From Frankia alni ACN14a (GTDB lineage Bacteria > Actinomycetota > Actinomycetes > Frankiales > Frankiaceae), in the NCBI RefSeq assembly GCF_000058485.1, contig NC_008278.1, forward strand, positions 2,908,962 through 2,972,961: a stretch of 64,000 nt of DNA. Direction: 5' to 3'. Below the pieces are notes generated by a model. It saw only the letters and a list, made by a program, of their open reading frames with translations. It made no database searches and was not told where the DNA came from. Shown piece after piece: positions 1-28,307 of the stretch. The position numbers and the translations under genes are program-made. Position 1 is the stretch's first letter. Each line of letters opens with the position of its first letter.

Positions 1-1345
1 AGCCGATGAACGGTCCAGCGTCGTTGTCGGGATGCCAGTACATATAGGTGCCGTTGAACTCCCAGCCCACCCTGACGATGGAGTTCGCGCGACCGTTGTT
101 GACCAGCACCGTGCCGAACTGCCGCCAGTAGGAGTCATAGGCCCCGCTGGCGCAGGCCCCGATACTGGCCCCGACGTTCTGCGGGAACAGCGGCTGGCTG
201 ATCGACATGCGGCCCGGCCAGCCGCCGACCGCGTTGAACATCCACGCGCTGTTGGTGACCCCGCCCCAGGAGGTCCGGTCGGTGTAGGCCAGGTCCAGGT
301 CGACCGCGCGGCCCCGCCAGTTCCCGAACCCTTGGACCTGATCTCCGCCGTTGATCCCGGACAGCCACGGCAGCCCGGACAGCGGGCCGTTGCCCGCACC
401 GCCACCGCCGGTCGGGGACACCGACGGGGACGCGGACGGGGTCGTGGTGGGGGCGACCCCGACGGAGTACACGTCGGCCTTGTCGAAGGTCAGCGTCGGC
501 CCGCCGGTCGCCTGGGGGTTGTGCTGTCCCGTCAGGGTGATGATGGTGGTGTGGTTGCCGCTGGCCAGGACCGGTGAGGTCCACACCAGGTCCGGGGCCT
601 GCCCTGCCGCGCGATACCAGTCGGCCGTGCCTTGGCCGGCCCCGTCGGTGGCGATGCTGTCGATGCCGCCCTGGGGTTCCTTGACGCCGTAGACCTTCAG
701 CTGCACCCCGGCCCAGGTGATCGTCACCTTGTCCCCGGTGGCCGAGGCCCATCGGTAGGAGCTGTTCGCGGTGCTGGCCACGGCGGTGTTGCAGCCGGCG
801 GCGCACTGATGCCAGTTCGCGGCCGGGGTGTAGGACACCGTGTTGGTGGTCGTCCCGATCGCGGTGTCCTCGATGGTGGTGGACAGCACCGGTGCCCCGG
901 TCGGGGTCACGGTCGGCGCTGTCGAGGTCGGGGCCGGCCCCGGCCCCGGATTGCCTCCTGCGTAGGCGGTGTACCCGAAGGTGATCTGCCGGCTGGCCGC
1001 CGGCGCACCAGTCGAGGTCAGGAACTGCACGCGGAAGGCACTCGCGGTGACCTGGTCGACCGCGTGGATCAGTGGGGCGGTCGGTTCCACCACCACCGCT
1101 GCCGGCACCGGCAGCATCTGCAGCCCGACCGTGCAGTAGCCGGAGGGGTCGGTGGTGCAGGTGACCGTGTCGGCCTGCAACGCGACGGTGGCCGTGACCT
1201 GCCGCGGCTGCTGCGGCAGGGCGGTCCCTACCGTCACCCCCACCCCGGCTGCCACCAGCATCCCGACCGTGGCGAAGACCGCAGGCCGGCCGCCCCACCA
1301 GCGTCGGACCCTGCGCACCCGTGTCACCTTCCAGCCCCCGCTCAT
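1..1345 (-). CDS. secreted GH26-like glycoside hydrolase (3' end outside window)
   Basis: The reading frame runs off the window at position 1, so only about 448 N-terminal codons are seen. The ATG overlaps the stop of the GH16 gene by ATGA. An Arg/Trp-rich start is followed by a hydrophobic stretch (about residues 20-40), either a signal peptide or a membrane anchor. Next comes a module beginning ALQADTVTC that is also present in the GH16 neighbour, then a Thr/Pro-rich linker and Ig-like region. The last part has the pattern RVGWEFNG followed by MYW, with E429 as candidate acid/base; this resembles GH26 mannanases and lichenases. I infer a polysaccharide hydrolase carried at the end of the phage tail operon. 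The GH26 call rests on one motif and could be a related clan A family. Confidence 0.6.
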   Translation of the reverse strand, partial: MSGGWKVTRVRRVRRWWGGRPAVFATVGMLVAAGVGVTVGTALPQQPRQVTATVALQADTVTCTTDPSGYCTVGLQMLPVPAAVVVEPTAPLIHAVDQVTASAFRVQFLTSTGAPAASRQITFGYTAYAGGNPGPGPAPTSTAPTVTPTGAPVLSTTIEDTAIGTTTNTVSYTPAANWHQCAAGCNTAVASTANSSYRWASATGDKVTITWAGVQLKVYGVKEPQGGIDSIATDGAGQGTADWYRAAGQAPDLVWTSPVLASGNHTTIITLTGQHNPQATGGPTLTFDKADVYSVGVAPTTTPSASPSVSPTGGGGAGNGPLSGLPWLSGINGGDQVQGFGNWRGRAVDLDLAYTDRTSWGGVTNSAWMFNAVGGWPGRMSISQPLFPQNVGASIGACASGAYDSYWRQFGTVLVNNGRANSIVRVGWEFNGTYMYWHPDNDAGPFIG

Positions 1346-2574
1346 ACGCGCTGCCAGACACGCAAATAGTCAATGTCCATCGAGGCCGGAAACCGCGTGG
1401 TGCTATCAGGCCCGCCGTGCAGCGGCGGCCAGTTCCCACCGACACTCAAATTCGCGATCAGGTAGAACGGATAGGCTTTGAACGCCGCAGGATCGTGATA
1501 CCCGTTGCATTCCCCGGGATGATTCGCGGCATAGATCTCCGTGCAGATCGACAGCCGGGCTCGGTGGCCGTCGATGTACCAGGACAAATGGTCCGGTTCC
1601 CAGTCGAAGCCGTAGACATGAAAATTGGCCGCAGTATCGGGACCCGTGATGGTAGCCGTGGCAGTGTCTCCGGCCTGACCGCTGACCGCATCATGCTCGG
1701 TGAGGTGGACGGTGGTCGGATCGTTCCCAGCGATCTCGAACACATCCTCCTCGCCGGAATCCGGCCAGCCGCCGTACACACGCTGGTCCGGCAACATCCA
1801 CAGCGATGGCCAGAAACCGTTGCCGCTCGGGACGCGCACCCGCCCCTCGTAGTAGCCGTAGGTGAACTGGAACGGGTGATAGCCGGGATTGTTGGCCCCG
1901 AACACGTCCGGGCCCGTGGACACCATCCCCGAATAGATCTTCCCGCCGGATTGCGTGGCCGTCAGGTGCAGTTGTCCCCCGGAGACGGACACATTGTCGT
2001 TGCCGGTCGGGGCGGTGTTGTAGGTCTCCTGCTCGCGGTTGTACGGCTGGCAGGAGCTGGAAAACGACGGGTTGCACAGTACCCACCGGCTCAGGTCCAG
2101 CGCGGTGCCGGTGAAGTCATCCGCGAACGGCAGGGTCCAGGCCCCTGTCTGCCCCACCGGCCCGGTGGGGCCGGCCGGCGGGGACGTCGTGGGGGACGGG
2201 GAGACGGTAGGAGAGCCCGGTGGGCCGAGCGGCGTCTCGGGTCGGCCCAGCACAGCCGTGTACGCGAAGCGCACGGGGGTGGATGCCTGGGGGTTGCCGG
2301 TGACCCCCAGGAACCGCACCCGGAAGCTGGCCGGGGTGACCTGGTCGACTGCGTGTAGGGCCGGCAGCGCGGTCTCCACCCGGACCGCCGCCGGCTGCTG
2401 GAGCAGCCCCGTGCGCACGGTGCAGTACCCGGCGGTGTCCGTGGTGCAGGTGACCGTGTCGGCCTGCAGGCCTACCGTGGCGCCCGCGCCGCTGGAGGCC
2501 GGTCCTCCGATCGCGGTGAGCAGCGCGAGCGCGCCCAGCAGCGCCGTCATGGTCCGTGCCAGCCGCGTGCCCAT
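1342..2574 (-). CDS. secreted GH16 family endo-glucanase
   Basis: This 410-aa protein has a typical Sec signal peptide (MGTRLARTM, then a Leu/Ala-rich core, cleavage near residue 30). The ALQADTVTC-type module shared with the next gene spans about residues 35-110, followed by a Pro/Ser/Thr linker. The GH16 catalytic domain covers about 145-410 and keeps the family signature ExDxxE: E275, D277 and E280, inside GEEDVFEIAG. GH16 enzymes cleave beta-1,3/1,4-glucans or galactans with retention. All key residues are present, so activity is likely. It is the penultimate gene of the tail operon seen here and overlaps its successor by 4 nt. A Sec signal on a phage tail-operon enzyme is unusual: the product should be exported by the host cell rather than built into virions. 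Confidence 0.85.
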   Translation of the reverse strand: MGTRLARTMTALLGALALLTAIGGPASSGAGATVGLQADTVTCTTDTAGYCTVRTGLLQQPAAVRVETALPALHAVDQVTPASFRVRFLGVTGNPQASTPVRFAYTAVLGRPETPLGPPGSPTVSPSPTTSPPAGPTGPVGQTGAWTLPFADDFTGTALDLSRWVLCNPSFSSSCQPYNREQETYNTAPTGNDNVSVSGGQLHLTATQSGGKIYSGMVSTGPDVFGANNPGYHPFQFTYGYYEGRVRVPSGNGFWPSLWMLPDQRVYGGWPDSGEEDVFEIAGNDPTTVHLTEHDAVSGQAGDTATATITGPDTAANFHVYGFDWEPDHLSWYIDGHRARLSICTEIYAANHPGECNGYHDPAAFKAYPFYLIANLSVGGNWPPLHGGPDSTTRFPASMDIDYLRVWQRV

Positions 2575-2575
2575 C

Positions 2576-3448
2576 TCAGGACCACACCGGGGTGACGACC
2601 GCGGACATGTAGCTGGCAGCGGTGGTTACCGCGCCGTTGCCGGAGCCGCCGAATCGCAGGGCGTTGACCTGGATGCTGTACGCCCCGGAGATCACCCCGG
2701 TGTTGCCCGGGGCGTGCCGGATGTAGCCGGAGATCCCGGACTCCCACGGCACGCTGGTCAGGACCGCCCCGGACAGCGCGGGCGGGGTCTGCCCGGTGCC
2801 GTTGCGTACGTTGAGGGAGAACACGTCGGACGGCTCCGACTTGGCGATCGATGCCTGGACGACGAACGCGACCTGGACGCGGCAGCCGTAGTCCGGCACC
2901 TCCAGCCGCATGATTCCGACCTCGTTGGTGATGCCGGTGACGGGCACGGACGTCGCGGACAGGTAGCGGGAGGGCCACAGCCCCCGCCATTCCGCTCCGT
3001 CCCAACCAAAGGGCAGGCCGCTGTCCTGCTCGACCGCGATGTCCCCGGAGCCCTTCTGGCCGATCTGCAGGCGGGCCAGCCGGTTCGCGACGGTCCGGAT
3101 CCGCGGGGTGGCGGTCCAGGCGCTGCCGTCGTAGACGGCATGGCAGCCCGGGTTCTGCAACCAGGCGACCATGCCCCCGGAGGGGGTGAGGACCTTGCTG
3201 TCCCGGTCGGAGGCGTCCGCGTAGGACATCACCAGCCGGGGTTCGACGGCGACGGCGAGCGCCTGGATCTGGCCGGGGCCGTTGGGGGGGTCAGCCTGGG
3301 CCGGGTAGGGCAGGCCCTGCATCGACGTCGTGCCCACCCGGACCCCTTCGGTGGTGCCACCGCCGGCGCCCCCCGGCACGGGGATGGTCGGCAGGCGACG
3401 GGCGGGGTCCGTGTCCTCCCGTCGCCTGCTCAGCATAGCTACCCCCAT
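2576..3448 (-). CDS. putative minor tail protein
   Basis: A 290-aa protein with no catalytic motif that I recognise. It is Gly/Ser/Thr/Val-rich with predicted beta structure, as is common for actinophage minor tail or receptor-binding proteins. It lies between the OB-fold tail gene and the GH16 gene, and the GH16 start follows within 2 nt. The annotated ATG at 3448 makes a 158-nt overlap with the upstream gene; the in-frame ATG at 3322 would cut this to 32 nt, so the start is uncertain. The tail role is inferred from position and composition. Confidence 0.6.
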   Translation of the reverse strand: MGVAMLSRRREDTDPARRLPTIPVPGGAGGGTTEGVRVGTTSMQGLPYPAQADPPNGPGQIQALAVAVEPRLVMSYADASDRDSKVLTPSGGMVAWLQNPGCHAVYDGSAWTATPRIRTVANRLARLQIGQKGSGDIAVEQDSGLPFGWDGAEWRGLWPSRYLSATSVPVTGITNEVGIMRLEVPDYGCRVQVAFVVQASIAKSEPSDVFSLNVRNGTGQTPPALSGAVLTSVPWESGISGYIRHAPGNTGVISGAYSIQVNALRFGGSGNGAVTTAASYMSAVVTPVWS

Positions 3449-3734
3449 CCCCGGTTGGGGGTGAAGAGGTAGGGGGTAGGGCCATGCCGGCGCGGCGGAT
3501 GCGTCCCAGCACGATCATCTGCCCGCCGCCGTGCAGGACCAGCACCACATGGCCGGCCGCCGGCTCGGTGTAGGAGTCCAGCACGGCGATGTGGTCCACC
3601 GGGTCCGGGTCTCCGCGGACCTGCAACGCGAGGGTGCCGTCGGCATTCACGGCGGTGACCACCCCCACCCCCCACGGCACCCCGGCGGACGCGGCCTGGG
3701 CCAGCGCCATGGCCAGATCGAGGCGGGCCGCCAT
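3291..3734 (-). CDS. small OB-fold-like tail protein
   Basis: A 147-aa product. The first 85 residues fit the small OB-fold proteins found in many actinophage distal tails: pattern GVVTAVNADGT, then VVLVLHGGG and MIVLGRIRRA. The rest is low-complexity Pro/Gly/Arg sequence and overlaps the next gene out of frame, so it may be a dispensable tail. The ATG overlaps the stop of the sedolisin-tail fusion as TGATG, implying translational coupling. A role near the tail tip is inferred from position. Confidence 0.6.
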   Translation of the reverse strand: MAARLDLAMALAQAASAGVPWGVGVVTAVNADGTLALQVRGDPDPVDHIAVLDSYTEPAAGHVVLVLHGGGQMIVLGRIRRAGMALPPTSSPPTGDGGSYAEQATGGHGPRPSPADHPRAGGRRRWHHRRGPGGHDVDAGPALPGPG

Positions 3735-6655
3735 CAGGACTCCGCCGGTGCGGTGTAGGCACGCGTCTGGATGGTCATCGGCTGACCCGGCACCAGCGGG
3801 ATGGTCATCTGATCGATGATCTGCCGCTCCGCATGCGCGTCCGGATACACCGCTTGGATCACCTGGGAGCCGTCCAGCGCCGCGTTGACGATGTTGGACA
3901 CCTGCAGGACCGAGGTCCACTGGGTGACCTGCGCCAGCAGAGCCCCGGCCACGGCCGCCCCTTGCGCGTTGTTGCTGATCAGCGGTGAGGAGAAGAACCG
4001 CGGCTTCTTGCCGAACGGCCCTTGCCAGGAGGTGTGGCTGCTGGGGTCGGAGTCGACCAGCATCACCTGCACGGGGGTCTCCCCATCCAGCCGTTCCCCG
4101 CGCACCACTACTGCGTTGAACGTCCTGGTGCGGCCCACCCGGCGCGTAGCGCCGGTCATCACCCCTGCCGGGCCGGCATCGACCGTCCAGACCGGTGGAT
4201 CGGCCAGGGTCGCCACCGGCTGCACCACGGGATGCCCCCGCGCATCGAAGTAGCCTTCGGCGCCGATGGCGTCCTCCAGTTGGCCGATCGCGGCCCACCG
4301 GTCGGCGTCGGTCCATGTCATCTGCGCGGCCACCGTGACGGCATCCGCGCGGATGATCGGACTGGTGTTGATCGCCCCTGGGGGGAGGGCCAGGCCCATA
4401 AGTCGGGCGATCTCGCTGGCCACGGTGGCGCCGGGCAGGCTCTGCGTGGTGGCGGTGAACCGGTAGTCCGTGACGAACCCGCCCCGGTCCGACGTCTGGG
4501 TCAACGACACCCCGCTGGAACTCTCCACGACCGCGTCGGCTTCCTCGAGGTGGAACAGGCCCAGCGGGCACCACTCGATGCTGCCGTCCGGGTAGACCAG
4601 CCCCCAGTTGACGTATAGTTCGACGCCGTTGACCCCGGACAGCAGGTCCGTCACCTGCCAGGGGGACAGCCCCGGGGCGGCGATGGTGCAGGTCAACTGC
4701 CGGCGGATCCGCTGGGTGGCATCCACCTGGACTTGGCCGTCGACCACGGGTAGCCCGTCGGGGTAGCCGGGGATCTGCACCCGGGTGGAACCGACGTAGG
4801 GCACGATCCGCGCGGTCATGGAGTGCGGGCCGCGCAGGGCATCGAGGAACTGCTGGCTGACCAGCAGGGCCGTGACCGTGACCGTGTTGGAGATCATCGA
4901 GCTGGCTGCGAGCTCGCCGTCGACGGCCTGGTAGTGCACCGGGGTGTTGGTGGGGGCGGCCGGGTCCGACCCGGTCCATACCCCGCCGGTCAGCGTGGCC
5001 GGGGTGGCACCGGCGATCGGGGTCCTCACCCCGTCCGGCCCCACCCGGTAGATCGTCGCCGTGGTGAACTGCGGCCACCGCAGCGACAGGTCCACCGTGC
5101 TGCCGGAGGTGGACACGGTCGCGGTGAGCCGCGCCGGGTAGAGGGCGCTGAGCAGTGCGGCCCCGTCCGGCACCCCCAGCCCGGTGCACGCATCCCAGCC
5201 GGCGCGGGCGCTGTACCCCCGGTTGTTTCCGGCCACGATGTCGCGGCAGACCTGCGGGTTGCGGTACAGGAAGGGGTGCAGGTGGCCGACGCGGTAGCCC
5301 AGCGTCTGGGTGAGCTGGGCGGCGAGTCCGGCCAGCATCGGGGACACCGCGCTGGTCCCGCCGATGACGGCCCACTGGCCGCCGACCAGCACGATGCTGG
5401 TTCCGTCCGCGGCCGCGGTCGCAACGTCCGGGCCGCCGCGGCCGATACGGCTGCCCGGGTTGATGGACGGGGGGATGTTGGTGCTGGCCTGGTAGTCCGG
5501 TAGGTCGAACAGGTCGGAGATGCCGCCGCCGCTGTTGCCGTCTGCCCCGCCCCAGTCCCAGACCACCTCATCGGTGATCGTCTGGCCGGTGCGGACCAGC
5601 GTGGTGCCGCCGCAGGCCAGCATCCACGGGCTGCTGGCCGGGTAGTCTGCGTGCGCCAGGCCGTCGTGGACCCCGTCGGAGCTGCCGTCATCCCCGGAGC
5701 TGCAGGTGCAGGTGATCCCGAACAGCGCGGCGGTGTGTAGAACATCCTCCAGGGCGCTGATGGCCGCGGGGGTCCAGTTCTGTTCGGCGCTGCCCCAACT
5801 CAGGCTGATCGCGCACGGGCTGGTCACCGTGTCGTGGATGGCCGCGAGGTAGGCATCCACGAAGCCGGCGCTGGTGTTCGGGGCGACGTACACGGCCTGG
5901 CGGGCCTGCGGAGCGACCGCGCTGAGGATCGCGATGTCCAGCATCGTTTCGACAGAGCCGCCGTCGGAGCCCGGGCTGTTCGCGGCACCGTCCACGGAGA
6001 TGGAGCTGACCTGTGGGGGGGTGTGGCCGATCGCGGACCAGTAGGTGGCCAGGTCGGGCAGGCTGTAGCCGCCGCCGAACTCCAGGATGGCCACGGTCTG
6101 ACCACCTCCGGTCGCCGGGTAGTGGTCCCGCGCGGCCAGCGCGGTCGCGTAGAAGCGGCTGTCCGCTCCGCGGGCATCGGGGCCGGGGGAGGGGCGGTGC
6201 CGGTGGTGGGTGCGCAGTGCCGGCCGGTCGTCCAAGCCGAGCACCGCCACGACCCCGGCCAGCTCCTCGGGTATGTGCACCGGGCCGGTGCGCCCGCGGT
6301 ACCAGCCGCCGGGATGCTCCCAGCGGTCCAGCCGGACCCGGAAGGCACGGCCCATCTGCCCGACGGAGCCGGCCAGCTTGACCGTCCGGGCCGGCTGGTG
6401 CTCCTCGACGACGTCCAGGTCGTGTTCGGCGGCGAACAGGCGCAGCGCGGCGAGGTCCTGCGCGCGGGCGCCGTGGCGGGCCGCGAACTGGCGGCGGTCC
6501 ATTCGCACCGCGATGTCGGGGAGCGGTTGGGTGGGGCGCAGCAGCACCGTGACCTGCATGCGCGTGGAGCGGTCCAGCAGTCCCCGCCGGCGCGCGCCGC
6601 TCATCGGACGCCGGTGGCTGCCGGCCAGCGGCCGGTACCCGCGCGGGGTGGCCAT
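3734..6655 (-). CDS. S53 sedolisin/kumamolisin-type peptidase fused to a DUF5047-type phage tail protein
   Basis: This 973-aa protein joins two normally separate families. Residues about 33-150 match the pro-kumamolisin activation domain (MDRRQFAARHG, then GRTGPVHIPEELAGVV). Residues about 160-505 form the S53 catalytic domain. It has E236 and D240 of the Glu-x-x-x-Asp pair, D322 in SSGDDG (oxyanion Asp), S435 in GGTSAVSP, and the C-terminal calcium-site pattern starting D472 and continuing GWDACTGLGVPDG. All catalytic residues of a serine-carboxyl peptidase are intact. An FN3-like linker (about 510-605) leads into a DUF5047-like domain (SQQFLDALRG, then LPVVDGQVQVD), which in actinophages is a distal tail component. 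Start and stop overlap both neighbours as TGATG. I infer a virion-mounted, self-activating peptidase. No comparable fusion is known to me. Confidence 0.88.
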   Translation of the reverse strand: MATPRGYRPLAGSHRRPMSGARRRGLLDRSTRMQVTVLLRPTQPLPDIAVRMDRRQFAARHGARAQDLAALRLFAAEHDLDVVEEHQPARTVKLAGSVGQMGRAFRVRLDRWEHPGGWYRGRTGPVHIPEELAGVVAVLGLDDRPALRTHHRHRPSPGPDARGADSRFYATALAARDHYPATGGGQTVAILEFGGGYSLPDLATYWSAIGHTPPQVSSISVDGAANSPGSDGGSVETMLDIAILSAVAPQARQAVYVAPNTSAGFVDAYLAAIHDTVTSPCAISLSWGSAEQNWTPAAISALEDVLHTAALFGITCTCSSGDDGSSDGVHDGLAHADYPASSPWMLACGGTTLVRTGQTITDEVVWDWGGADGNSGGGISDLFDLPDYQASTNIPPSINPGSRIGRGGPDVATAAADGTSIVLVGGQWAVIGGTSAVSPMLAGLAAQLTQTLGYRVGHLHPFLYRNPQVCRDIVAGNNRGYSARAGWDACTGLGVPDGAALLSALYPARLTATVSTSGSTVDLSLRWPQFTTATIYRVGPDGVRTPIAGATPATLTGGVWTGSDPAAPTNTPVHYQAVDGELAASSMISNTVTVTALLVSQQFLDALRGPHSMTARIVPYVGSTRVQIPGYPDGLPVVDGQVQVDATQRIRRQLTCTIAAPGLSPWQVTDLLSGVNGVELYVNWGLVYPDGSIEWCPLGLFHLEEADAVVESSSGVSLTQTSDRGGFVTDYRFTATTQSLPGATVASEIARLMGLALPPGAINTSPIIRADAVTVAAQMTWTDADRWAAIGQLEDAIGAEGYFDARGHPVVQPVATLADPPVWTVDAGPAGVMTGATRRVGRTRTFNAVVVRGERLDGETPVQVMLVDSDPSSHTSWQGPFGKKPRFFSSPLISNNAQGAAVAGALLAQVTQWTSVLQVSNIVNAALDGSQVIQAVYPDAHAERQIIDQMTIPLVPGQPMTIQTRAYTAPAES

Positions 6656-8397
6656 CACGGGCTCCCCGGGGCCGCGGCCGGCGCGATGGCTGTTTCCAGC
6701 GCCGTCCACGATGTCTTGGCCAGCGTCACGTCGGCCCAGGTCTGGTAGGTGGCCAGTACGTCGGCCCAGGTACCGCCGTAGGTGGTGCCGGTGCCGCCGC
6801 CGGCTCCGATGCCGTCGCCGGGGCTGGCCGCGCGGCCTAGCCCGGAGGGGCGGCCGGTGTAGGTGACGGGCAGAGTGTGCACGCGGGCAGGTAGGCCGTA
6901 GCCGATGCGACTGCTGTCGTAGGCCCCGACGGCGATGTACCCGGAGTCGTCCCCGGCGGCGTCCGCGGCAGGGGCCCGGTAGTACAGCGTCTGGCCGTCG
7001 TCGAGCAGCGCCTCCAACGCGCGCCGTTCCTCATCGGTGAACGTCAGGATCTTCAGGGTGGTGGTGGGGGCCCAGCGCCGCCCGGACACCACGATCGGGT
7101 CCTCTCGGCCCAGCACCTGGAAGACGCCCTGGGGCAGGGTGCGGTTCTTGGTGGTGGCATGGTCCTCCGCTGGTGTGATCCGCATGGACAGTGACGGGCG
7201 GCCGGGGCTGATGAGCCAGTAGCCGGTGGAGCCGGGCAGGGTGACGGGCTGGCTGATCACCGCGCTGCCGGCCGGCTCGGTGGCCGTGTACCAGACGGGG
7301 CGGTCGGCGGGGGCCTCGACGTCGGCCCCGACCCACTGCCCGGAGGTGAGGGTGGCAGGGGCGGCCGACCGGACCGGAATGACTGTTCCTGTGGGGTCGG
7401 AGCGGGTGACGGTGACGGTCACGGGCTGGTTGGGCCCGGTCCATGCCACCTGTAGGTCGATCCGACCTGCCTGTACGTTCGGAACCGCGTAGATCACTCC
7501 GCCGAGCAGGGGTCGGCCGGTCAGGCTGCCCCGTTCGTGGATCTGCCCGGAGCCGACGAGGTGACATACCCCGGCTGCCGTGAGCACCCCGTTGCCGCTG
7601 ATCTGCCCGGAGCCCTCGCCCGGCTGACCGGCCGAGCCCCCGAGAACGGACAGCGCCGCGGTGCCGCGCAGTGCCGCGGCCCCGCTGGTGTGGGGGTGGC
7701 CCTCCCCGACGGCCAGCGTCCCGAGGCCGCTGACCGTGCCGGTTCCGGTGCCGGAGGCGGCCACGGGCAGGATTTCGACGGCCGCCCAGGACAGCGGCCC
7801 GGACGGCGCGGTGGTCGACAGCATCATCGGCTGTCCTTCGGCCCCCGCCGCGGTGCAGTACAGGGTGGCCGCGGTCAGCGGGGTGGCCGCGCTGTACCGG
7901 GTCACCCCGCTGCCGGGGGTGGGGGCGGCGCCGTTGGACCAGTCCGCGTAGATCCCCCACAGCCAGGAGCCGGTGCGGCTGCAGGGGACCTGCACGGACA
8001 GCAGACCGGTCGCGGTGCCCTGCGCGACGGTGCCGATCGGGCTGCCGGGATCCTGCCCGGTGAACACGATGACCTGCGCATACTTGGCATAGCTGTTGTC
8101 TGAGGCCCCGACCACGGTGACGGTGCGGGGGATTGCTGTGGTGGTCACGGCCCACCACAGCACCGCCTCGTCGTAGGCACTGGTCCCCCCTGCCCGGCCG
8201 GCAAGCTGCCAGGACAGGCCGCCGGTGTCAGTGATCCAGGGACCCACGCTGCCGCCGGCGTAGGTGGAGCCCACCTGCGCGGCCACCAGCAGCAGCGCCC
8301 CGGTCGGGGCGGTGAACGGGGCGGTGGTGGCCGGCCCGCCGCCGGTGAACTCCGGGACCAGGACCGGCGGCGGGGTGGAGGAGTCGACCGCGAGCAT
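6655..8397 (-). CDS. distal tail (Dit-like) structural protein
   Basis: A 580-aa protein between the tape measure region and the sedolisin-tail fusion, the usual place for the distal tail protein. The N-terminal 230 residues look like a beta-sandwich (LamG or Ig-like). A Gly-rich repeat region follows (about 230-300), then an FN3-like segment similar to the linker of the next gene. The C-terminal half has an RPSLSMRITPAEDH-type segment, a LTFTDEERRALEALLDDGQ segment and a Gly-rich terminus. No catalytic motif was seen. The stop overlaps the next start as TGATG. The Dit assignment is by order, not by a diagnostic motif. Confidence 0.6.
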   Translation of the reverse strand: MLAVDSSTPPPVLVPEFTGGGPATTAPFTAPTGALLLVAAQVGSTYAGGSVGPWITDTGGLSWQLAGRAGGTSAYDEAVLWWAVTTTAIPRTVTVVGASDNSYAKYAQVIVFTGQDPGSPIGTVAQGTATGLLSVQVPCSRTGSWLWGIYADWSNGAAPTPGSGVTRYSAATPLTAATLYCTAAGAEGQPMMLSTTAPSGPLSWAAVEILPVAASGTGTGTVSGLGTLAVGEGHPHTSGAAALRGTAALSVLGGSAGQPGEGSGQISGNGVLTAAGVCHLVGSGQIHERGSLTGRPLLGGVIYAVPNVQAGRIDLQVAWTGPNQPVTVTVTRSDPTGTVIPVRSAAPATLTSGQWVGADVEAPADRPVWYTATEPAGSAVISQPVTLPGSTGYWLISPGRPSLSMRITPAEDHATTKNRTLPQGVFQVLGREDPIVVSGRRWAPTTTLKILTFTDEERRALEALLDDGQTLYYRAPAADAAGDDSGYIAVGAYDSSRIGYGLPARVHTLPVTYTGRPSGLGRAASPGDGIGAGGGTGTTYGGTWADVLATYQTWADVTLAKTSWTALETAIAPAAAPGSP

Positions 8398-8400: not shown

Positions 8401-8772
8401 CTACCCGCCGATGCTGGCCAGGCCGCCGGATGAGGGGTTGGTCAGCGTGTAGGTGCCCTGGGAGCTGTAGGGCTGGGGGGTCCCCAGCGGGGCGCCGCCC
8501 TGGAACACCCCGCCGCTGGCGGAGTCCCACGTGCCGACGAACGCCACCGTCGCCCCGCCGGGGACGTCGAACGTTACCGAGCTCGCCAGGTTCTTCGCGC
8601 CGGCCGCGGCCGGCGACCAGGACGCTGGCTTACGGGCATAGGCCGGGCTGCCACCGGCCAACTCACTGTCCCCGGCCGCGCCCGGGTCGGCTGCGTGCAG
8701 GGAGAAATAGAGGGCCCTGTTGGCCCCCAACTGATCGAGCATGTAATTCTTTGCCGCCGCGCTGAATCCCAT
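8401..8772 (-). CDS. conserved small phage tail protein
   Basis: A 123-aa product starting MGFSAAAKNYMLDQLG. It resembles the short proteins of actinophage tails with the pattern 'SLHTADPG...SELAGG.PAYARK' (family similarity from memory). GGGAG lies about 8 nt upstream of the ATG. It sits 12 nt after the tape measure gene and 3 nt before the Dit-like gene, so it is within the tail operon. Its exact structural role is unknown. Confidence 0.6.
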   Translation of the reverse strand: MGFSAAAKNYMLDQLGANRALYFSLHAADPGAAGDSELAGGSPAYARKPASWSPAAAGAKNLASSVTFDVPGGATVAFVGTWDSASGGVFQGGAPLGTPQPYSSQGTYTLTNPSSGGLASIGG

Positions 8773-8784: not shown

Positions 8785-11700
8785 TCAGCCTCTCTTGATA
8801 CCGCCGCGGAACGCGGCCGCGGTTTTGCGGTCGCGGTGGTCGATGCGGACGTCGATGATGTCCGTGATCTTTTGGTCGCCCAGGTAGACGTGAATGTCTC
8901 CGAGCTGCACCGGTCCGGCAGCTCCCCCGGACCGGCCGGAGGCCAGGTTCTGCAGGGTCTGCCACTGGCCGGGGGTGAACACGGCCGCAGGCTCCCCTGC
9001 CCCGGTGGCATTGAGGACCAGGCTGTGGCCGGGGGGCAGAATGCCACCGGAGTCGTAGCCCAGGTAGGAGCCGGAGTACAGGTTTTTGATGCGGTCGGGG
9101 CTGCCGTAGGTGTCCTTGATGTACCGCTCGCTGCTGATCAGGTTGTCCAGAGGGTTGAAGATGTCCCCGAATCCGCTCAGCATGTGCGCGCGGAAGGTGG
9201 ACGGCAGCATCTGCACCAGGCCGGTGGCGTGTTGCCCCAGAACCGCGGTTGGGTTGACTGCCCGAGCGTTGCCGCCCGATTCCAGTTGGACCAGCCGGGC
9301 CATGTCCGGGGCCCAACTGGCCGGCAGCCCGTTGATGGCCAGGGACTGCGTGATGAGCGCGGTCAGGTCCGCGGAAAGGCCCTTCTCTGCCCCGCCACCG
9401 AATATGGCATGCAGGGCAGAGGAGCCCAGGTGTTCAAGGCCGGAGAGAGCCCCGCTGGCCGCCTTCTTGGCTAGGCCGGTGGCCAGCCCGGGGACTTTCT
9501 CCAGGATCGAGCCTAGGTCGTCCAGGTGCTGGACGACCCAGCCCCAGGGGTCCTGCAACGCACCGGAAAAGATTTTGTCGAAGATGCCTCCCATGCCGGC
9601 CCCACTTGATACGATGCCCTTGATCAGTCCGCCGACGATGTGACCGCCGATATCGGCCATGACGGTGGACGGGCTCTTGATCCCGAAAAAGTGTTTGACC
9701 CCGTCGATGATCGAGGTGCCGATATCCTTGATGGTGGTCCACACCGTCTTCCCGGCATCCTTCAGGCCGTTGATCATCCCGTCGATGATGTCTTTGCCGG
9801 CGGTATAGAGCAGGGTGAGGGCGCCCGATCCGAAGTCGGAGAAGAACCTGGTGACATCGTGGAAGGCGGTGCTGACCAGACTTTTCACGTCACCCCAGAG
9901 CTTCCCCCAGCGCCCTGTGAAAATGTCGATGAAAATGGCGGCAATGCCAAGGATCAGATCGAGCGCGGTCTTGATCGCGTCGTGTATCAGCGTCCACGAG
10001 AGGACCACGGACCCCTTGACCAGATCCCAGGTAATCCGCCAGTAAATCAGCAGGGAGTTCAGGGCGAACTGAATCGCACCGAAGATGACGGCCCAGGAAA
10101 CACGGAAATCGGTTTCGACGATCGCCCATGTTTCCCGCCACAATGCTTTTATCTGCTCGCCGTTGTTATGCCAGAAATCGACGAAGACGCCGATTTCTCC
10201 GCGTATCCAGCTCAGCGGTCCGGCGATGAAGGCGCTGATTGCCTCGGAGACAACGGACCAGACTTCCCGGCCGGCGGTCTCGATACCGGAAAACGCGGCT
10301 CTGGCACCGTCGTGGAACCACGACACATGCCGGTAGGCATAGATCAGGGACCCGACCAGCAGCCCGATCCCGATCACGAGCAAGCTGATCGGGTTGGCGA
10401 CCATCACCGCGTTGAGCAGCGTCTGCGCGGCGGCCAGCGCACCGGTCGCCAGGCGCCACGCGCCGATGGCCCCCACCACCAGCCCGATACCGACGGCCCA
10501 GCTCCGGACCAGCGCCTGGTGCCGCTCACCCCAGCCGACCGCCAGGCGCACCGCCGAGGTCATCCCTCGGATCGCCTCACCGGCCCCGTCGAACGCCTCA
10601 CGGGCCAGGCGTCCGGCCCGGACGGCAACCGACTGCCAGCCCAGAATCTCCCCGGGATTCAGCTGCCCCTCGAAGCCGCCCCGCGCGAGGGTGAGCGCCG
10701 GAGTGACCTGCCGGCCCACCGCGCGCACTGCCGACCCGGCCGCGGCCGCCGCCCCGGCTGCCCCCTGCGGCGCGGGCCGTCCCGGGCGCAGCGTCAGCGT
10801 CCCGGCCGGGTCACGGGTGGGGGGCTGGAACTGGCCGCGCAGCCCGCCGGCGAACCCGGTCCACAGCCCCCGCGCGGTCGCGATGTCCCCGGTGAGGCTG
10901 CCCAGCCAGCCGGAACGGACCTGCGGGGACAGCGCCTGCCCGCGCATCGCGCCGACCAGCGCATCCCAGTCGGCCCGGACGGTGTGCAGCGTGCTGTGGG
11001 CAAACGCGCCCAGCCGACGCAGGAACCCCAGCACCCCGGAGCCGGGATCTGCCCCAGGCCCGGCCCGGAACCCCTCGATCAGGGCACGCCACAGCGGGCT
11101 GACCGTGCGGATCGCCGCGGCCAGCGTCCCGCCGATCCCCCCGGCCAGGTCCAGCAGCCCCTTGAGCAGCAGGGTGACCATCGGCAGAACGACGGTGCCC
11201 GCTTCGATGCCGAACGTGCTCAACCCGGCTTTGGCCCGGTCGACCTGGAACCGCAGCGTGGAGGTGACCGTGCTCCAGCCGGCCACGTTCTTACCCGCCC
11301 GGTTCGCTGCCTCACTGATATCCCGCGTGTTGGCGATCAGCTCCTGCATGTGAGGGCCGGTGAGCTGCGCTGCCGCCGTGAATCCCCGGGTGCCGCCGAC
11401 GATGGCATGCAACGCTGAGACCTGGCGGGCAGCATCGTTCGGGAACGTCGTCCCGATGTGCTGCTCGATCAGTTGGAGAGTGGCGACCAGACCTTTCTCT
11501 GCCAGGGAGTGCTGGACCTGCGTGACTTCCAGCCCCACCTCGGCCATGGCCGCGGCCGCCTCCCGCGACGGCGCGGCCATGCTTTGGAGCATGAATCGCA
11601 TCCCGGTGCCGGCCGACGCGGCGTCATGGGTGACGGAGGTGATGGTGGCCATCGCCCCGGTGACCTCAGCCAGTGGCACATGAAGTGCATTCGCGACCGG

Positions 11701-12648
11701 CGCGATCGTTTTCATGCCCAACGCCATGTCCTGCATGCGGACACCGCCGTGTGCAACGGTCTCCACCATGATGGACATGGCCCGGTTGGCCTGGCCGACC
11801 GGAATCTCATAGGAGCGCATCACGGTCATCAGGGACGTGGAGACCGTCTCCATGTCCGCCATTCCGGTGCGGGCCCCTTCGGCCGCGGCGTGCAGTACCT
11901 GGAGTGCCGCGGCCCCGTGATACCCGTCTGATTCGATTGAATAGATGCCTTTTTCTAGCTCGATCGCGGTGACGCCGACTTGGGTGGACATCGATTTCAT
12001 CCCGTCGGCGATCATCCCGAGATTTCCGGTGGCCTCACCCGCCCCGGTGGAAAGATCCTTCAGTCGGAATTCGAAATCCTGCGTCTGATGTGCGGCCGTG
12101 GCAAGCCCATGAACGCCCTCCAGAACGCCAAGGATGGCCGCGAAGTCTTTCAACTGACCGAGCAGCCCGCCGCCGAGGAAACTGCCGCCCTGCACGGCCG
12201 CCGCCCCGGCAGAGCCGGCCGCCTCCGCCCCGGCGATCTCGGCGCGTAGTTGCTGGACCTGCCGTTGGGCCGCAGCCGTATCGGCGTTGACCCGCACCGT
12301 GGGGCGCATGTCGCGGGCCATGGCATCCACCCGGTCCAGACCGCGCATGACCTGCCGGCCGTCGACATCCAGGCGGACGGTGGGCCGCATGTCGCGGGCC
12401 ATCACCTCAACCCGGTCCAGACCGCGCATGACCTGCCGGCCGTCGACGTCCAGGCGGACGACCGGCTTGAGGTCGCGGGCCATCACCTTGACCTGGTCGT
12501 AGCTGGCCCGCACCTGGGAGATGTCGGCCCGGGTTTTGATGACCAGCTCGCGGCTCATCGCCTTGTCAAAGAAAGCATTGATCTGCGTGAGCGCCGGTTT
12601 GGTATTGGCATTGACCATCGCCCATGCCTCACCGACGACGCTCTGCAT
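8785..12648 (-). CDS. phage tail tape measure protein with C-terminal lysozyme-like (SLT) domain
   Basis: A 1287-aa protein, the longest in the tail block. An AAGGAGGTG ribosome binding site lies just upstream of the chosen ATG (MQSVVGEAW). The N-terminal 120 residues carry a 27-aa tandem repeat. Residues about 190-480 match the TP901-type tape measure core (alternating Ala/Met-rich helices, e.g. VAHGGVRMQDMALGMK). Several hydrophobic helices follow around residues 700-970. The C-terminal part (about 1140-1250) has an SLT/goose-lysozyme-like pattern (RLVQLESGGNARAVNPT, then GLVQMLPSTF), with the Glu in LESGG as catalytic candidate. The protein should set tail length and help DNA cross the cell wall. 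It follows the frameshifted chaperone gene, the usual order in siphoviruses. Confidence 0.92.
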   Translation of the reverse strand: MQSVVGEAWAMVNANTKPALTQINAFFDKAMSRELVIKTRADISQVRASYDQVKVMARDLKPVVRLDVDGRQVMRGLDRVEVMARDMRPTVRLDVDGRQVMRGLDRVDAMARDMRPTVRVNADTAAAQRQVQQLRAEIAGAEAAGSAGAAAVQGGSFLGGGLLGQLKDFAAILGVLEGVHGLATAAHQTQDFEFRLKDLSTGAGEATGNLGMIADGMKSMSTQVGVTAIELEKGIYSIESDGYHGAAALQVLHAAAEGARTGMADMETVSTSLMTVMRSYEIPVGQANRAMSIMVETVAHGGVRMQDMALGMKTIAPVANALHVPLAEVTGAMATITSVTHDAASAGTGMRFMLQSMAAPSREAAAAMAEVGLEVTQVQHSLAEKGLVATLQLIEQHIGTTFPNDAARQVSALHAIVGGTRGFTAAAQLTGPHMQELIANTRDISEAANRAGKNVAGWSTVTSTLRFQVDRAKAGLSTFGIEAGTVVLPMVTLLLKGLLDLAGGIGGTLAAAIRTVSPLWRALIEGFRAGPGADPGSGVLGFLRRLGAFAHSTLHTVRADWDALVGAMRGQALSPQVRSGWLGSLTGDIATARGLWTGFAGGLRGQFQPPTRDPAGTLTLRPGRPAPQGAAGAAAAAGSAVRAVGRQVTPALTLARGGFEGQLNPGEILGWQSVAVRAGRLAREAFDGAGEAIRGMTSAVRLAVGWGERHQALVRSWAVGIGLVVGAIGAWRLATGALAAAQTLLNAVMVANPISLLVIGIGLLVGSLIYAYRHVSWFHDGARAAFSGIETAGREVWSVVSEAISAFIAGPLSWIRGEIGVFVDFWHNNGEQIKALWRETWAIVETDFRVSWAVIFGAIQFALNSLLIYWRITWDLVKGSVVLSWTLIHDAIKTALDLILGIAAIFIDIFTGRWGKLWGDVKSLVSTAFHDVTRFFSDFGSGALTLLYTAGKDIIDGMINGLKDAGKTVWTTIKDIGTSIIDGVKHFFGIKSPSTVMADIGGHIVGGLIKGIVSSGAGMGGIFDKIFSGALQDPWGWVVQHLDDLGSILEKVPGLATGLAKKAASGALSGLEHLGSSALHAIFGGGAEKGLSADLTALITQSLAINGLPASWAPDMARLVQLESGGNARAVNPTAVLGQHATGLVQMLPSTFRAHMLSGFGDIFNPLDNLISSERYIKDTYGSPDRIKNLYSGSYLGYDSGGILPPGHSLVLNATGAGEPAAVFTPGQWQTLQNLASGRSGGAAGPVQLGDIHVYLGDQKITDIIDVRIDHRDRKTAAAFRGGIKRG
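12289..12486. repeat. 81-bp tandem repeat inside the tape measure gene
   Basis: About 2.4 copies of an 81-bp unit encode 27-residue repeats of the form VMARDxxPxVRLDVDGRQVM followed by RGLDRV. The two full copies are nearly identical in DNA, so the duplication is recent. Tape measure length tracks tail length, so copy number here could change the virion. Confidence 0.85.
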
Positions 12649-12691
12649 CGCCTTGCACCTCCTTCCCGCCCGTCGCACGGGGAATGTCGGG

Positions 12692-15086: not shown

Positions 15087-16268
15087 TCAGCCTCCTGATC
15101 TGCGGGTGCTGCCGAGGTCCGGGGTCCACACGGTGGGCATCCGGCGCAGCCTGTCCGGGTTGACCGTGCCGAGGAACAGCTCTGCCTCAGGGACCCCGAC
15201 CCCGCCGTCGGCGTCCAACGCCTGGTTCGCCACCTCGACGGTGACGCCGGCACGCTTCACGGCCGTGGCGCGGGCCGGCAAGGTCGCGCCGGTCGCCGGG
15301 TAGCCCAGCAGCTGAGCGATGGAGGCAGCCAGCGCGGCCGCGGCCAGCTTGCCCATCGCCGGGGGCGCGGTGCCGTAGGTGCAGGTCACGGCGAACGTGC
15401 CTGGTTCGGTGGGGGGCAGGTCGAGCTGCTGGTGGGAGGGCCAGCCGTAGCGGCGGGTGGGGACCGCGGTGGCGGTGGGCCGCACGCGCACCAGCCACCG
15501 TTGCTCGTCGATGCGGTACTCGGCCGGGGGGATGATCTGCCCGTCCAGCAGCACCTGGACGATGCTGCGCAGCGGGTACACCCCGAGGTCGACGGCCGGC
15601 GGCCAGCCGCCGCCACCGCGGCGGTCGTACACCCGGTCCGGGGTGAGCGCCGTCCACACGTCCCCGCTGGCATAGCCGTAGCAGCTGGCGAACGTGCCGA
15701 GGCCCGCGCCGATCCGTCCGGGGAGCGGGTCGGCGCTCGGGCGCATCGTCGCGGTGAGCAGCCCGGGGTAGAGCCGCCCGGACCGCAGGTAGAGGACCTC
15801 GCTGGCCGCCTCAGCACACTGCTGGAGCACCCGGCGGTCGACGCGGGCCATGCGCGGTCGGGCCGCGACGTCGTCGGCGCTGATCCACGGGGTGGGCAGC
15901 AGTGGGGCCGGATCCGGGCTGGCGGTGGGGCTGGAAAGTGCCGCCTCCACGCGGATGTGGGCCCAGGTGTGCAGCGGCCAGGTCTCGCTGGCCCCGCCGG
16001 GCAGCGTGACGTGCCATTCCCCGGCCAGATTCCCCGGGGCGGCGGTGTCCTCGAGCGTCCAGGGGTACTGGACCAGGCCGCCTGCCGCGTACACCACCTG
16101 CGCGGGCGCGTTGATGACCACCTCGCCGCCCACGGTGGGACGGGCCACGAACCGGACCGCGGCCCCGGTCAGGTCCTGCGGGCTGCGGCTGATCGGGTTG
16201 AGCAGGGTGTCGGTGAGCGTCGGCTGAGTGTCCCCCTGTCCGACCTGGAAAACGGGCAAATTGCTCAT
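15087..16268 (-). CDS. fused Ig-like domain and gp6-type head-tail connector
   Basis: This 393-aa protein appears to have two parts. Residues about 1-115 resemble the BppU/Ig-like N-terminal module of phage baseplate proteins (QPTLTDTLLNP, then LTGAAVRFVA). From about residue 128 (ISADDVAARPRMARVDRRVL) it resembles head-tail connectors, with an N-terminal helical bundle and a beta-rich insertion. The start overlaps the stop of the large fibre gene by ATGA, so a connector is translated directly after four fibre genes, which is an unusual order. Connector identity is inferred from the helix pattern and position. Confidence 0.55.
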   Translation of the reverse strand: MSNLPVFQVGQGDTQPTLTDTLLNPISRSPQDLTGAAVRFVARPTVGGEVVINAPAQVVYAAGGLVQYPWTLEDTAAPGNLAGEWHVTLPGGASETWPLHTWAHIRVEAALSSPTASPDPAPLLPTPWISADDVAARPRMARVDRRVLQQCAEAASEVLYLRSGRLYPGLLTATMRPSADPLPGRIGAGLGTFASCYGYASGDVWTALTPDRVYDRRGGGGWPPAVDLGVYPLRSIVQVLLDGQIIPPAEYRIDEQRWLVRVRPTATAVPTRRYGWPSHQQLDLPPTEPGTFAVTCTYGTAPPAMGKLAAAALAASIAQLLGYPATGATLPARATAVKRAGVTVEVANQALDADGGVGVPEAELFLGTVNPDRLRRMPTVWTPDLGSTRRSGG

Positions 16269-22608: not shown

Positions 22609-23652
22609 TCAGTAGGGCAGGGCAGGGGTGGGCTGGTAGCCGACCGTGGGTAGGGGGTAGCGGGCCTCGCGGCGGCGGAAACTCACCCGAGAGCTGTCCT
22701 GCTGCCAGCCGCCGTCCGGCCCTCGACCCCAGTACAGGTTCGTGAACCCGAAGCCGCTGAAGCTCGAGGCGAGCGGGGAGGTGTCCAGCGTGCGGCTGCC
22801 CTTGTTCCACAACATCACCCGCGGCCACACCCAGTGGATGTAGGGCGGGTTCGCCGGACCTCCGTCAATCACGGCGCGGGACCATGCTTCGATGCTCACC
22901 CCGCACGGGTTGGGGTCGGTCTGCAGGTCGGGGTAGGCATACCCTTCCGTGCCGTAGCCGCTGGTGGAGTTGGTGGCCGGGGGGCCCGGCACGCATCCCA
23001 TCGGGGTGGTGCCGGTGTCCACGAACGTGGTGGCCCCGGCCGTCTCCAGCGGGACCACGGCGATCTGCGCGTAGGAGGCACCGACCTGCCGGTAGATCCC
23101 GGCCATGGTCGCCCCCGGGGTGAGCGGGATGCTGATGCTGACGCTGCCGTTCGGCCCGATGACCGTGGTGCTGAGCGGGCTGGCCGGGGTGGTCTCCCCC
23201 CGATAGTTCATCACCGTGATCATGTGGCTGTAGGTGCCGGAGGGCATCGACCCGCCGGTCGAGGAGGGGGTAGCGGTGGCCACCGGGGCGGTCAGCGGCG
23301 GATCGTTGCTGGTGAGCACGGTGCCGCCGGTCAGCAGCTCCTCCAACTCCGGGTCCGGCGCGGTCAGGTCGACGGACACCGTCAGCCGCTTGGGCAGGTC
23401 CGGGGTGCGCCAGGTGACCGCCAGGTTCCCGGCCGCGTTGCGGGCGCTGGTGTCCTGGCCGTTCTCCATATCCTGCGCGAAGTCAATCTTCGCGTACTGG
23501 TCGGTGACGACCATGTTGTTCGGACCCTGCGCGATGTGCCCCATCGAATCCAGCCGGCACACCCGCATCGCGACCGACAGTATGGAGGCGGCACCGTCGT
23601 TGCCGGTGGGGGAGACGGCCGGTGATGTCGCGGCACCGACGACGATAGGCAT
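22609..23652 (-). CDS. major tail protein with Ig-like decoration domain
   Basis: A 347-aa protein starting MPIVVGAATSPAVSPTG. The first 105 residues (VCRLDSMGHIAQGPNN, then VTWRTPDLPKRLTVSVDL) fit actinophage major tail tube proteins. An Ig-like insertion covers about residues 115-225 (SGTYSHMITVMNYRGETT). The C-terminal part (VSIEAWSRAVIDGG, then WVWPRVML) returns to the tube fold. It lies 3 nt after the preceding gene, within the structural operon. The identification is by overall pattern and position. Confidence 0.7.
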   Translation of the reverse strand: MPIVVGAATSPAVSPTGNDGAASILSVAMRVCRLDSMGHIAQGPNNMVVTDQYAKIDFAQDMENGQDTSARNAAGNLAVTWRTPDLPKRLTVSVDLTAPDPELEELLTGGTVLTSNDPPLTAPVATATPSSTGGSMPSGTYSHMITVMNYRGETTPASPLSTTVIGPNGSVSISIPLTPGATMAGIYRQVGASYAQIAVVPLETAGATTFVDTGTTPMGCVPGPPATNSTSGYGTEGYAYPDLQTDPNPCGVSIEAWSRAVIDGGPANPPYIHWVWPRVMLWNKGSRTLDTSPLASSFSGFGFTNLYWGRGPDGGWQQDSSRVSFRRREARYPLPTVGYQPTPALPY

Positions 23653-26729: not shown

Positions 26730-28307
26730 TCAGGCAGCGGTGCGCTGGTGCACGGCGTCGCGCAGGCTCCGCGCGGCCAGTTCCAACGCCACCTGGCTGC
26801 CGAGGGCGGCCTGCTCCGCGATCCGCCGGCTTTCCGCGAGATGTGCCTGCGCGGCGGGGTCCAGTCCCGCGCGGCGCCGGCGGCCCAGCGCGGCCAGGGT
26901 CGGGCCGCCGGCCGCCACCAGCGCCAGCGGCTCCCCGGAGGCGGCCACGGCCAGCCGTGGAACCGGAAAGGCCGGGGTGTTGACCGCGAGCGCGGCCACC
27001 AGATGCAGACGGCCGCCGATGCGCCGCCAGTCCCCGGACAGGGCAGACCCGCGCAGTGCCCGGACCTGCTCCTCACTCACCCCGGGCCGCATCGCCCCGG
27101 CGACCCAGATACCCCACGCGTCCTCACCGGCCACCACGTCCGCCACGCCCGTGGCCGTGTTGTCGTAGTGCGCGATGGCCTGCGCGGCGGTGATGTCCGG
27201 CCGGGTGGAGGCGTGTCCGGTGTTCATGGTGATCGGGCCGGTCGGGATCAGCTGCCCGTCCTCGCAGGACACTGCCCCCGTCCGGTAGTAGGGGTAGGTG
27301 TAGCCCGGGCCCATCCTGGGAGCGCGTAGTCGCGCGCCGCCGGCACCGATGTGGTCGGTCATCCAGTCGGCCAGGTGTCCCCAGATCTGGCCGGAGTCCT
27401 CGATCGTCACCGGGGTGAGTTCGGTCAGGTGGGGATCGGCGAACCAGGCAGCGGGGGGTCGTGCCGGGTAGGCCGATGCGACGATGCGGGCCGGCTCCGG
27501 CGGGTGGATGGTCCACGCCGGCCAGGCCGAGGCCGCCATCGCTTCGCTGTCGTCGGTCTGGTCGGCCAGGGCCTGGGCCGGGGAGGGCAGCGGCTGCCCG
27601 TCGTCGTCCAGGCCGACGATGTAGGCACCGGCGAACGCGGGATGCGGTACCACCGTGAAGCCCATGACTTCACCGGCCGTGACGACCAGCCGCTCGGCGA
27701 TGGGGTAGCCGTCCTCGTCCTCCTCCAGGACCTCCCACTGCGCCACGCAGGCACCGAGGTCCCCGGAGACCCCGTTGAGCTGCCCGGCATAGATCCGCCG
27801 GGCGAAGCTCTGCGCTTCTTCCCGAGTGTCGAACTCCCCTGCGGCATAGAGGGCCTGCGCTCCGTCGGGGTACACGTCACCGCGGCCGTCTGGTTCGCCG
27901 GCCACGTCCCGGCGGGCCAAGCTGGTGATCCGCCCGACGTGCACGGCGTCCGTGGTGGGCAGGTTGCCATGCGGGGCCCGGTCGGTGGCCATGAGCGTCA
28001 ACGGGGCGTCGCGCCAGGTCAGCGCGTTGGGGGTGATGTATCGGCCGTCGGAGGTATCGACTCCCTCCACGATCCCGACGGGGATCGCAAAACCGATCAG
28101 TGGCCCGGTGGTCTCCGGCTCCGGGCTGTCCTCACCGTCGTCGGTCTCCTGCGCGAGGCTGGCATCGGCCCGGTCCGCCGCGGGGGTCTCAGCAGGCGCG
28201 GGCGGCCCGCCCGGCTCTGCTCCCGTGGCTGCGCTGGTCTCGGTGAGCTGCTGCGCCGGCTCGGCCGGCGGCTGGCTGGGGGCGGTGGTGGCCAGGACCG
28301 GTGGCAT
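26730..28307 (-). CDS. capsid maturation protease
   Basis: A 525-aa protein. A disordered Pro/Glu-rich start (about 1-65) precedes a domain like actinophage prohead proteases: FAIPVGIVEGVDTSDGRYIT, then QLNGVSGDLGA with the candidate nucleophile Ser, and TVVPHPAFAGAYIV. A middle region (about 300-430) and a helical C terminus (ESRRIAEQAALGSQVALELA) follow. It is the gene before the major capsid protein, as expected for a protease that trims scaffold. A G-rich spacer of about 90 nt separates the two. Confidence 0.8.
   Translation of the reverse strand: MPPVLATTAPSQPPAEPAQQLTETSAATGAEPGGPPAPAETPAADRADASLAQETDDGEDSPEPETTGPLIGFAIPVGIVEGVDTSDGRYITPNALTWRDAPLTLMATDRAPHGNLPTTDAVHVGRITSLARRDVAGEPDGRGDVYPDGAQALYAAGEFDTREEAQSFARRIYAGQLNGVSGDLGACVAQWEVLEEDEDGYPIAERLVVTAGEVMGFTVVPHPAFAGAYIVGLDDDGQPLPSPAQALADQTDDSEAMAASAWPAWTIHPPEPARIVASAYPARPPAAWFADPHLTELTPVTIEDSGQIWGHLADWMTDHIGAGGARLRAPRMGPGYTYPYYRTGAVSCEDGQLIPTGPITMNTGHASTRPDITAAQAIAHYDNTATGVADVVAGEDAWGIWVAGAMRPGVSEEQVRALRGSALSGDWRRIGGRLHLVAALAVNTPAFPVPRLAVAASGEPLALVAAGGPTLAALGRRRRAGLDPAAQAHLAESRRIAEQAALGSQVALELAARSLRDAVHQRTAA

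Follow-up and report, generated by a model that had tools for sequence, protein, structure and literature searches.

A predicted S53 sedolisin zymogen joined in frame to a DUF5047 tail protein in a prophage of Frankia alni

The window, i.e., the whole stretch of DNA analyzed here, comprises 64,000 nucleotides of Frankia alni ACN14a (NC_008278.1, positions 2,908,962 to 2,972,961), the genome of which is a single contig of 7,497,934 bases. Within a prophage tail operon it contains a gene in which a peptidase of family S53 (sedolisins) is joined to a phage tail protein of the DUF5047 type. The gene lies on the minus strand, where it runs from an ATG at 6655 to a stop codon at 3736-3734, and specifies 973 amino acid residues in a single uninterrupted open reading frame (ORF). 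A sequence-only reading of this DNA had proposed such a fusion at 3734..6655 without naming the strand, and these coordinates are correct. The gene and the parts of its product are listed below, where A7 denotes an alignment of 15 rows in which the window protein is compared with 14 viral S53 proteins.

3734..6655, minus strand: S53 / FnIII-like / DUF5047 hub fusion gene, a single open frame
6218..6565, minus strand: pro-kumamolisin activation domain, residues ~31-146 (PF09286; alignment to 1t1e from residue 40)
5132..6112, minus strand: S53 catalytic domain, residues ~182-508 (308 bits to mature kumamolisin 1gt9 over 182-507)
5936..5950, minus strand: catalytic E236 (codon 5948-5950) and D240 (codon 5936-5938), invariant in A7
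5690..5692, minus strand: oxyanion D322, invariant in A7
5351..5353, minus strand: nucleophile S435 in GGTSAV, invariant in A7
5240..5242, minus strand: D472 (RDIVAGNN), calcium site, nearly invariant in A7
4865..5125, minus strand: FnIII-like spacer module, residues ~511-597 (fold type judged by eye)
3737..4861, minus strand: complete DUF5047 baseplate hub, residues 599-973 (PF16466, 62 bits)

The GC content at third codon positions (GC3) is uniform throughout the gene, with values of 0.94, 0.91, 0.92, 0.97, and 0.90 in five sections from the pro-domain to the hub, and this range of 0.90-0.97 indicates that the frame is continuous. A frameshift or an assembly join between the S53 and hub halves, which the sequence-only reading had named as a possible flaw, is ruled out by the same uniformity. 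The start codon is preceded by GGGGAG and overlaps the stop of the upstream tail gene by one base; the stop codon likewise overlaps the ATG of the next gene by one base. Profile searches recovered both halves above the Pfam cut-offs: Pro-kuma_activ (PF09286) at residues 52-142 (37.6 bits versus a cut-off of 23.5), Peptidase_S8 at 232-451 (24.4 versus 21.8), and DUF5047 (PF16466) at 640-766 (62 versus 25). The PHROG 1887 family, named “tail protein,” matches residues 589-964 (E = 1.7e-46), and similarity to the tail family thus extends well beyond residue 600, where its absence would have spoken against a fusion. The in-frame joining of the two halves is upheld by these results, which support the presence, within the tail operon, of an S53 zymogen of intact appearance linked to a structural protein of the tail; such a linkage of enzyme domain and tail protein is the arrangement of virion-associated hydrolases. 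An in-frame ATG at M587 (window 4897), 12 codons ahead of the hub start, could yield a hub-only product, and no clear ribosome site was seen for it.

Sedolisins are described in PMC6278154 as acid proteases with a Ser-Glu-Asp catalytic triad. The residues E236, D240, D322, S435, E192, W287, and D472 were all found at these numbers in the window protein; the first four, comprising the triad and the oxyanion aspartate of MEROPS family S53, are invariant in A7, and E192 and D472 are nearly so. The pro-kumamolisin activation domain that typifies the family is likewise present. D472 and the stretch AGWDACTGLG align with kumamolisin, so that the S53 calcium site is matched by sequence; the calcium role of D472 is one which we take to be the same as in kumamolisin. 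The latter enzyme (MEROPS S53; PDB 1t1e and 1gt9) resembles the fusion in having a pro-domain followed by a catalytic domain, the same triad and oxyanion residues, and a matching calcium-site stretch, and the alignment of pro-kumamolisin 1t1e extends over residues 40-509 with ~390 bits. Kumamolisin is, however, a free enzyme, whereas the catalytic domain in the window is followed by an FnIII-like module and a complete phage hub. The earlier description of a complete pro-kumamolisin and S53 domain with its catalytic residues and calcium site is borne out by PF09286, 1t1e, and A7, and the protease half is predicted to be an intact-looking zymogen.

The spacer resembles a module in the upstream tail protein (39% identity over 102 amino acid residues by BLASTP, E = 2e-10; phmmer returned no target), and some other hubs are immediately preceded by ORFs with similar modules. 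The hub half is complete, residue 599 being the point at which standalone hubs begin. It is 25-33% identical to the hubs in 51 records, which include phages of Brevibacterium, Streptomyces, Rhodococcus, Arthrobacter, and Actinoplanes; for the phiAsp2 homologue, confirmation of translation by N-terminal sequencing is noted in the record. In eight phage representatives examined, a gene of its own encodes the hub (357-385 amino acid residues), unlike the window fusion. Comparison of a hub profile (A6) with the PDB gave a prophage tail protein (3cdd, E = 0.074) as the best match and a baseplate hub (8fqc, E = 0.31), both of them below significance.

The nature of this half was also judged from gene order. 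The tape measure of Streptomyces phage Samy is followed by a small protein, a PHROG 16363-type protein, the DUF5047 “baseplate hub,” another small protein, a PHROG 22620-type tail protein, and the endolysin. Streptomyces phage AbbeyMikolon has the same layout, again with the hub as a separate gene, and the hub is annotated as baseplate hub or tail protein in these two phages. The window tail genes follow this order from the tape measure to the PHROG 22620-type protein (gp25 in Samy), except that a GH16 glycoside hydrolase stands in the endolysin slot. The sequence-only reading had called the DUF5047 part a distal tail domain. This identity was considered and rejected: two genes separate the fusion from the tape measure, the Samy homologue is a hub, and no distal-tail family was matched. 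Since gene order and the Samy annotation contradict the former label, the DUF5047 part is better called a baseplate hub. The neighboring tail genes and the other prophage features are as follows.

8785..12678, minus strand: tape measure protein with SLT transglycosylase domain (PhageMin_Tail, E = 1.5e-32; SLT, E = 6.4e-07; PHROG 167, E = 4.4e-58)
8401..8772, minus strand: small virion protein of the Gp80 / PHROG 240 type (Pfam, PHROG)
6655..8397, minus strand: upstream minor tail protein of the PHROG 16363 type, 580 amino acid residues (PHROG 16363 at 309-561, E = 9.7e-22)
3291..3734, minus strand: small downstream tail gene, 3′-end uncertain (positioned as Samy gp24)
2576..3448, minus strand: tail protein of the PHROG 16452 / 22620 type (PHROG 16452, E = 1.3e-10; PHROG 22620, E = 0.00031), in the slot of Samy gp25
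1342..2574, minus strand: GH16 glycoside hydrolase (PF00722, E = 9.7e-18), in the endolysin slot of Samy and AbbeyMikolon
15087..16268, minus strand: head-tail adaptor (PHROG 783, E = 2e-36)
22609..23652, minus strand: major tail protein (PHROG 792, E = 1.1e-14)
24729..26636, minus strand: major head protein (PHROG 777, E = 5.1e-65)
26730..28307, minus strand: head maturation protease / portal-associated protein (PHROG 859 and 18402)
35580..37424, plus strand: portal protein (PHROG 776 at residues 21-615, E = 4.1e-113)
37434-37509: tRNA-Val

Other enzymes are found at the N terminus of related hubs. The scans covered 278 hub loci, ~220 of them distinct by a 50-residue core; the hub and S53 surveys were seeded by patterns and are incomplete, and the viral contigs in them are predictions. 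Long open frames lie upstream of many hubs in GC-rich DNA, and codon-position GC was used as a frame control for N-terminal extensions; as candidate fusions, most of those listed were rejected as spurious by this control. A real extension of at least 150 residues was present at 6 of 203 hub loci, a set that includes L163 and L270, added from the S53 scans. Two of the extended hubs carry a PhoD-like phosphatase (L229, L234), one an M14 carboxypeptidase (L245), and three (L077, L078, L163) no recognized enzyme; for the last three Pfam gives Phage-tail_3 instead of DUF5047. A scan around the extended hubs comprised 78 loci, 76 of which were new and were analyzed. DUF5047 hubs with an N-terminal PhoD-like phosphatase were identified in 15 contigs (L287-L293, L295-L301, L306) and those with an N-terminal M14 carboxypeptidase in four (L294, L308, L323, L356), L287, L293, and L294 being the contigs of L229, L234, and L245 again. 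Among 24 proteins submitted to Pfam, i.e., these 19 hubs, the window protein, L077, L078, L163, and gp22 of phage P1312, DUF5047 was found in 19, PhoD in 15 (gp22 included), and M14 in 4.

These IMG/VR fusions resemble the window protein in that an enzyme precedes the same hub family in one frame; they differ in that the enzyme is a phosphatase or a carboxypeptidase rather than S53, and their hubs belong to another subgroup. In L308 and L323 an extra domain appears, by eye, to lie within the M14 part. The cultured Thermobifida phage P1312 offers a further comparison: PhoD forms the N terminus of its gp22 “phosphodiesterase” (1096 amino acid residues), the product of the second gene after the tape measure, which is, like the fusion, a tail-region protein with an N-terminal enzyme, but with PhoD in place of S53. 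The occurrence of PhoD and M14 at the same site of the hub is what would be expected of a virion-borne hydrolase and strengthens that reading of the S53 half.

The same S53-hub combination was sought widely. Phage databases had been suggested as a place to look for it, and none was found there: in each of the 51 phage records with a match only the hub is matched, and the S53 half has no match among the records of the phage collection. Forty-three plasmid records match, none of them covering 80%, and in the 30 listed the similarity concerns either S53 or the hub, never both. Matches at E <= 1e-10 occur in 8 of 35 genomes of the host family, where only the window's own match extends to the hub; in a sample of the class the hub is present in 8 of 393 genomes, including the window's own, the other matches lying in open frames of 364-682 residues. 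No S53 domain was detected in the hub ORF at any of 124 hub loci in the first survey or 77 in the second (the window's own locus, L168, being left out), and none of 23 enzyme-bearing or extended hub-type proteins gave an S53 match. Approached from the protease side, 80 of 95 confirmed viral S53 loci included one hub-fused case, which is the window's own.

Separate S53 genes, by comparison, are present in dozens of predicted viral contigs (IMG/VR loci L160-L167, L247-L276, L364-L443), some of them very large (447, 392, and 355 kb), and the general remark in the sequence-only reading that sedolisins are usually secreted must be qualified accordingly, as they are not confined to secreted cellular enzymes. 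With repeats and the window's own contig dropped, 32 viral contigs remained in the first set, all with S53 as a standalone gene. The best segments of these proteins (e.g., L163, L165, L166, L270) are 33-49% identical to the window S53 and show the same active-site residues in the aligned rows. They differ from it in not being fused to a hub and in that a pro-domain was found in a minority, namely 8 of 32 and, in a later scan which included the window's own, 24 of 80 by phmmer, which possibly misses divergent pro-domains. Three contigs (L078, L163, L270) carry both a relative of the window hub and a separate S53 gene, and in other viral contigs S53 lies among tail or connector genes. Two standalone genes have unusual structures: at L271:6396-8813 the catalytic domain is broken after its first part by an intein-looking stretch, and at L257:7389-12071 an S53 with pro-domain is followed in one frame by ~1000 residues of cadherin-like repeats (both judged by eye).

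The host has a second S53 gene (L002, G000:C1:860600-862102), the product of which is 44% identical to the window S53; no phage-like neighbors were seen around it by eye. In a phylogenetic tree, L002 and its host-family relatives group with the viral S53 proteins of L161, L162, and L270, and the window S53 occupies a long, unplaced branch (support 0.29) that falls outside the clade formed by L002, L004, L005, and L006. Capture of the protease from a host chromosomal S53 gene was considered and is unsupported, given the 44% identity to L002 and the position of the window branch outside the host-family clade.

The explanation toward which we lean is that the gene encodes the baseplate hub of an actinobacterial siphophage-type prophage, bearing an S53 zymogen on its N terminus via an FnIII-like spacer, and that this enzyme serves to open up the host surface when the phage enters; in this view the N-terminal end of the hub is an exchange site for such enzymes. 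The presence of other enzymes at the same site in related viral sequences suggests that the S53 half is probably a tool for crossing the host cell surface, and surface digestion is the simplest purpose that S53, PhoD, and M14, three unrelated enzymes fused to hubs, could share. To judge from its position and homology, the fusion would be translated as part of the tail operon and then built into the tail tip, where it would form the hub. The pro-domain would presumably hold the protease inactive inside the cell and while the tail is being assembled, as in the sedolisin family. Once a released particle had reached the surface of a new host, the pro-domain would be clipped off, probably under acid conditions, and the tethered catalytic domain would cut an envelope or surface-layer protein so that the tail can pass; the transglycosylase domain of the tape measure would arm the tail additionally. 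The spore coat, rodlet, or S-layer named as targets in the sequence-only reading are conjectural, as are the self-processing and the virion location that it proposed. The description of sedolisins as acid proteases in PMC6278154 makes an acid setting the natural trigger.

A bolder version, in which the hub N terminus is a plug-in socket for enzymes exchanged among actinobacterial phages and this prophage has mounted on it a zymogen proteinase, one that would become active under acid conditions and solely on the particle and would then digest a protein layer in the host envelope, is offered tentatively, as we would sooner doubt it than accept it in full. Were it true, the tail would open protein rather than peptidoglycan or polysaccharide; to our knowledge, the tail-borne enzymes described to date mostly attack one or other of the latter. 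A sedolisin at the hub would imply that filamentous actinobacteria possess a protein barrier which phages must cut and that a particle-mounted protease can be kept inactive by the pro-domain it carries. With the PhoD and M14 fusions, the hub N terminus becomes a general and testable exchange point. The standalone viral S53 genes represent a phage enzyme group; no description of a phage sedolisin was found in the open-access literature under the terms searched, a mention inside article bodies being possible.

Several observations weigh against the favored explanation. The S53-hub fusion is a single example, with none other in the phage, plasmid, host-family, class, or viral searches, and a standalone viral S53 used as query found no match in the phage collection. 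Predicted viral contigs, not cultured phages, are the source of the viral loci for S53, PhoD, and M14; 18 of the 19 PhoD and M14 contigs come from six close metagenome numbers and are therefore not independent, and DUF5047 was not detectable in the C-terminal part of P1312 gp22. A wall hydrolase is encoded near the standalone S53 gene in at least 8 of the 32 contigs (two of these, L161 and L162, being close relatives). As for the prophage, its portal gene is on the strand opposite to the head and tail genes, no terminase was matched in the genome by PF03354 or PF03237 (nor was there a match to phrog_775, a guessed family), and no attachment-site repeat of at least 14 bases was found beside tRNA-Val. 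The absence of two terminase families from the searches and of such a repeat means that the prophage is possibly unable to package DNA, and it may be defective or without infectious particles.

It is unlikely, in our view, that the S53 half serves in lysis or release, with the hub as no more than a convenient carrier; late in infection it would then loosen the protein layers of the envelope, as the standalone S53 genes near endolysins may do. What recommends this idea is the neighborhood of the standalone viral S53 genes, in which wall hydrolases and holins recur. The 121 neighbors of the 32 genes include, at E <= 0.001, GH25 (5), Amidase_2 (3), r1t holin (2), M15 (2), GH19 (2), and M23, NlpC/P60, and CHAP (1 each), families which may coincide on one protein and for which some matches do not reach the Pfam cut-off; endolysin is the name of 15 of the 25 PHROG families listed for these neighbors, and 8 of 10 hand-picked neighbors exceed the Pfam cut-off for a wall hydrolase. 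Wall hydrolases beside standalone S53 genes thus suggest lysis as much as entry. The hub-fused enzyme, however, is bound to the particle, it retains the pro-domain that was detected in only a minority of the viral S53 loci, and its gene has no endolysin gene beside it in the window, where GH16 occupies the slot. A lysis role suits the standalone genes better than the hub fusion.

Improbable as well is idle cargo, that is, a piece of a protease gene caught by a decaying prophage and now without function, with which the possible packaging defect, the opposite strand of the portal gene, and the sole occurrence of the fusion would agree. Such a relic is at odds with 973 open codons of uniform third-position signature, with the retention of the tested catalytic residues and of the one-base overlaps on both flanks, and with a long branch, itself of unsupported position, outside the host-family clade. 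Less credible still is an assembly or maturation protease that acts while the tail is being put together, cutting the hub, the tape measure, or itself rather than the host, since, even though S53 lies within the tail gene cluster and sedolisin zymogens such as that of kumamolisin process themselves, the existence of hub-only phages indicates that the hub has no need of S53, and the same site holds PhoD, which could not do such a job, or M14, both of them enzymes without an obvious part in tail maturation.

A matching IMG/VR viral contig (IMG number 637000115) of 42,859 bases corresponds by arithmetic to approximately window -5547 to 37311 and ends beside tRNA-Val; left of the window there is a weak integrase match (E = 0.027). 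The portal ORF extends over 35580-38114, and its PHROG match ends beside tRNA-Val, so that the end of the ORF may be an attachment-site junction or a rearrangement. The GH16 protein (1342-2574) has a signal-like N terminus, and the product of the next gene (window -508 to 1345, L027:13454-15307) begins similarly, by eye. The same prophage also encodes a papain-like C1 peptidase of the PHROG 16701 / Pfam C1 type on the minus strand at window -3329 to -2580 (L027:10633-11382).

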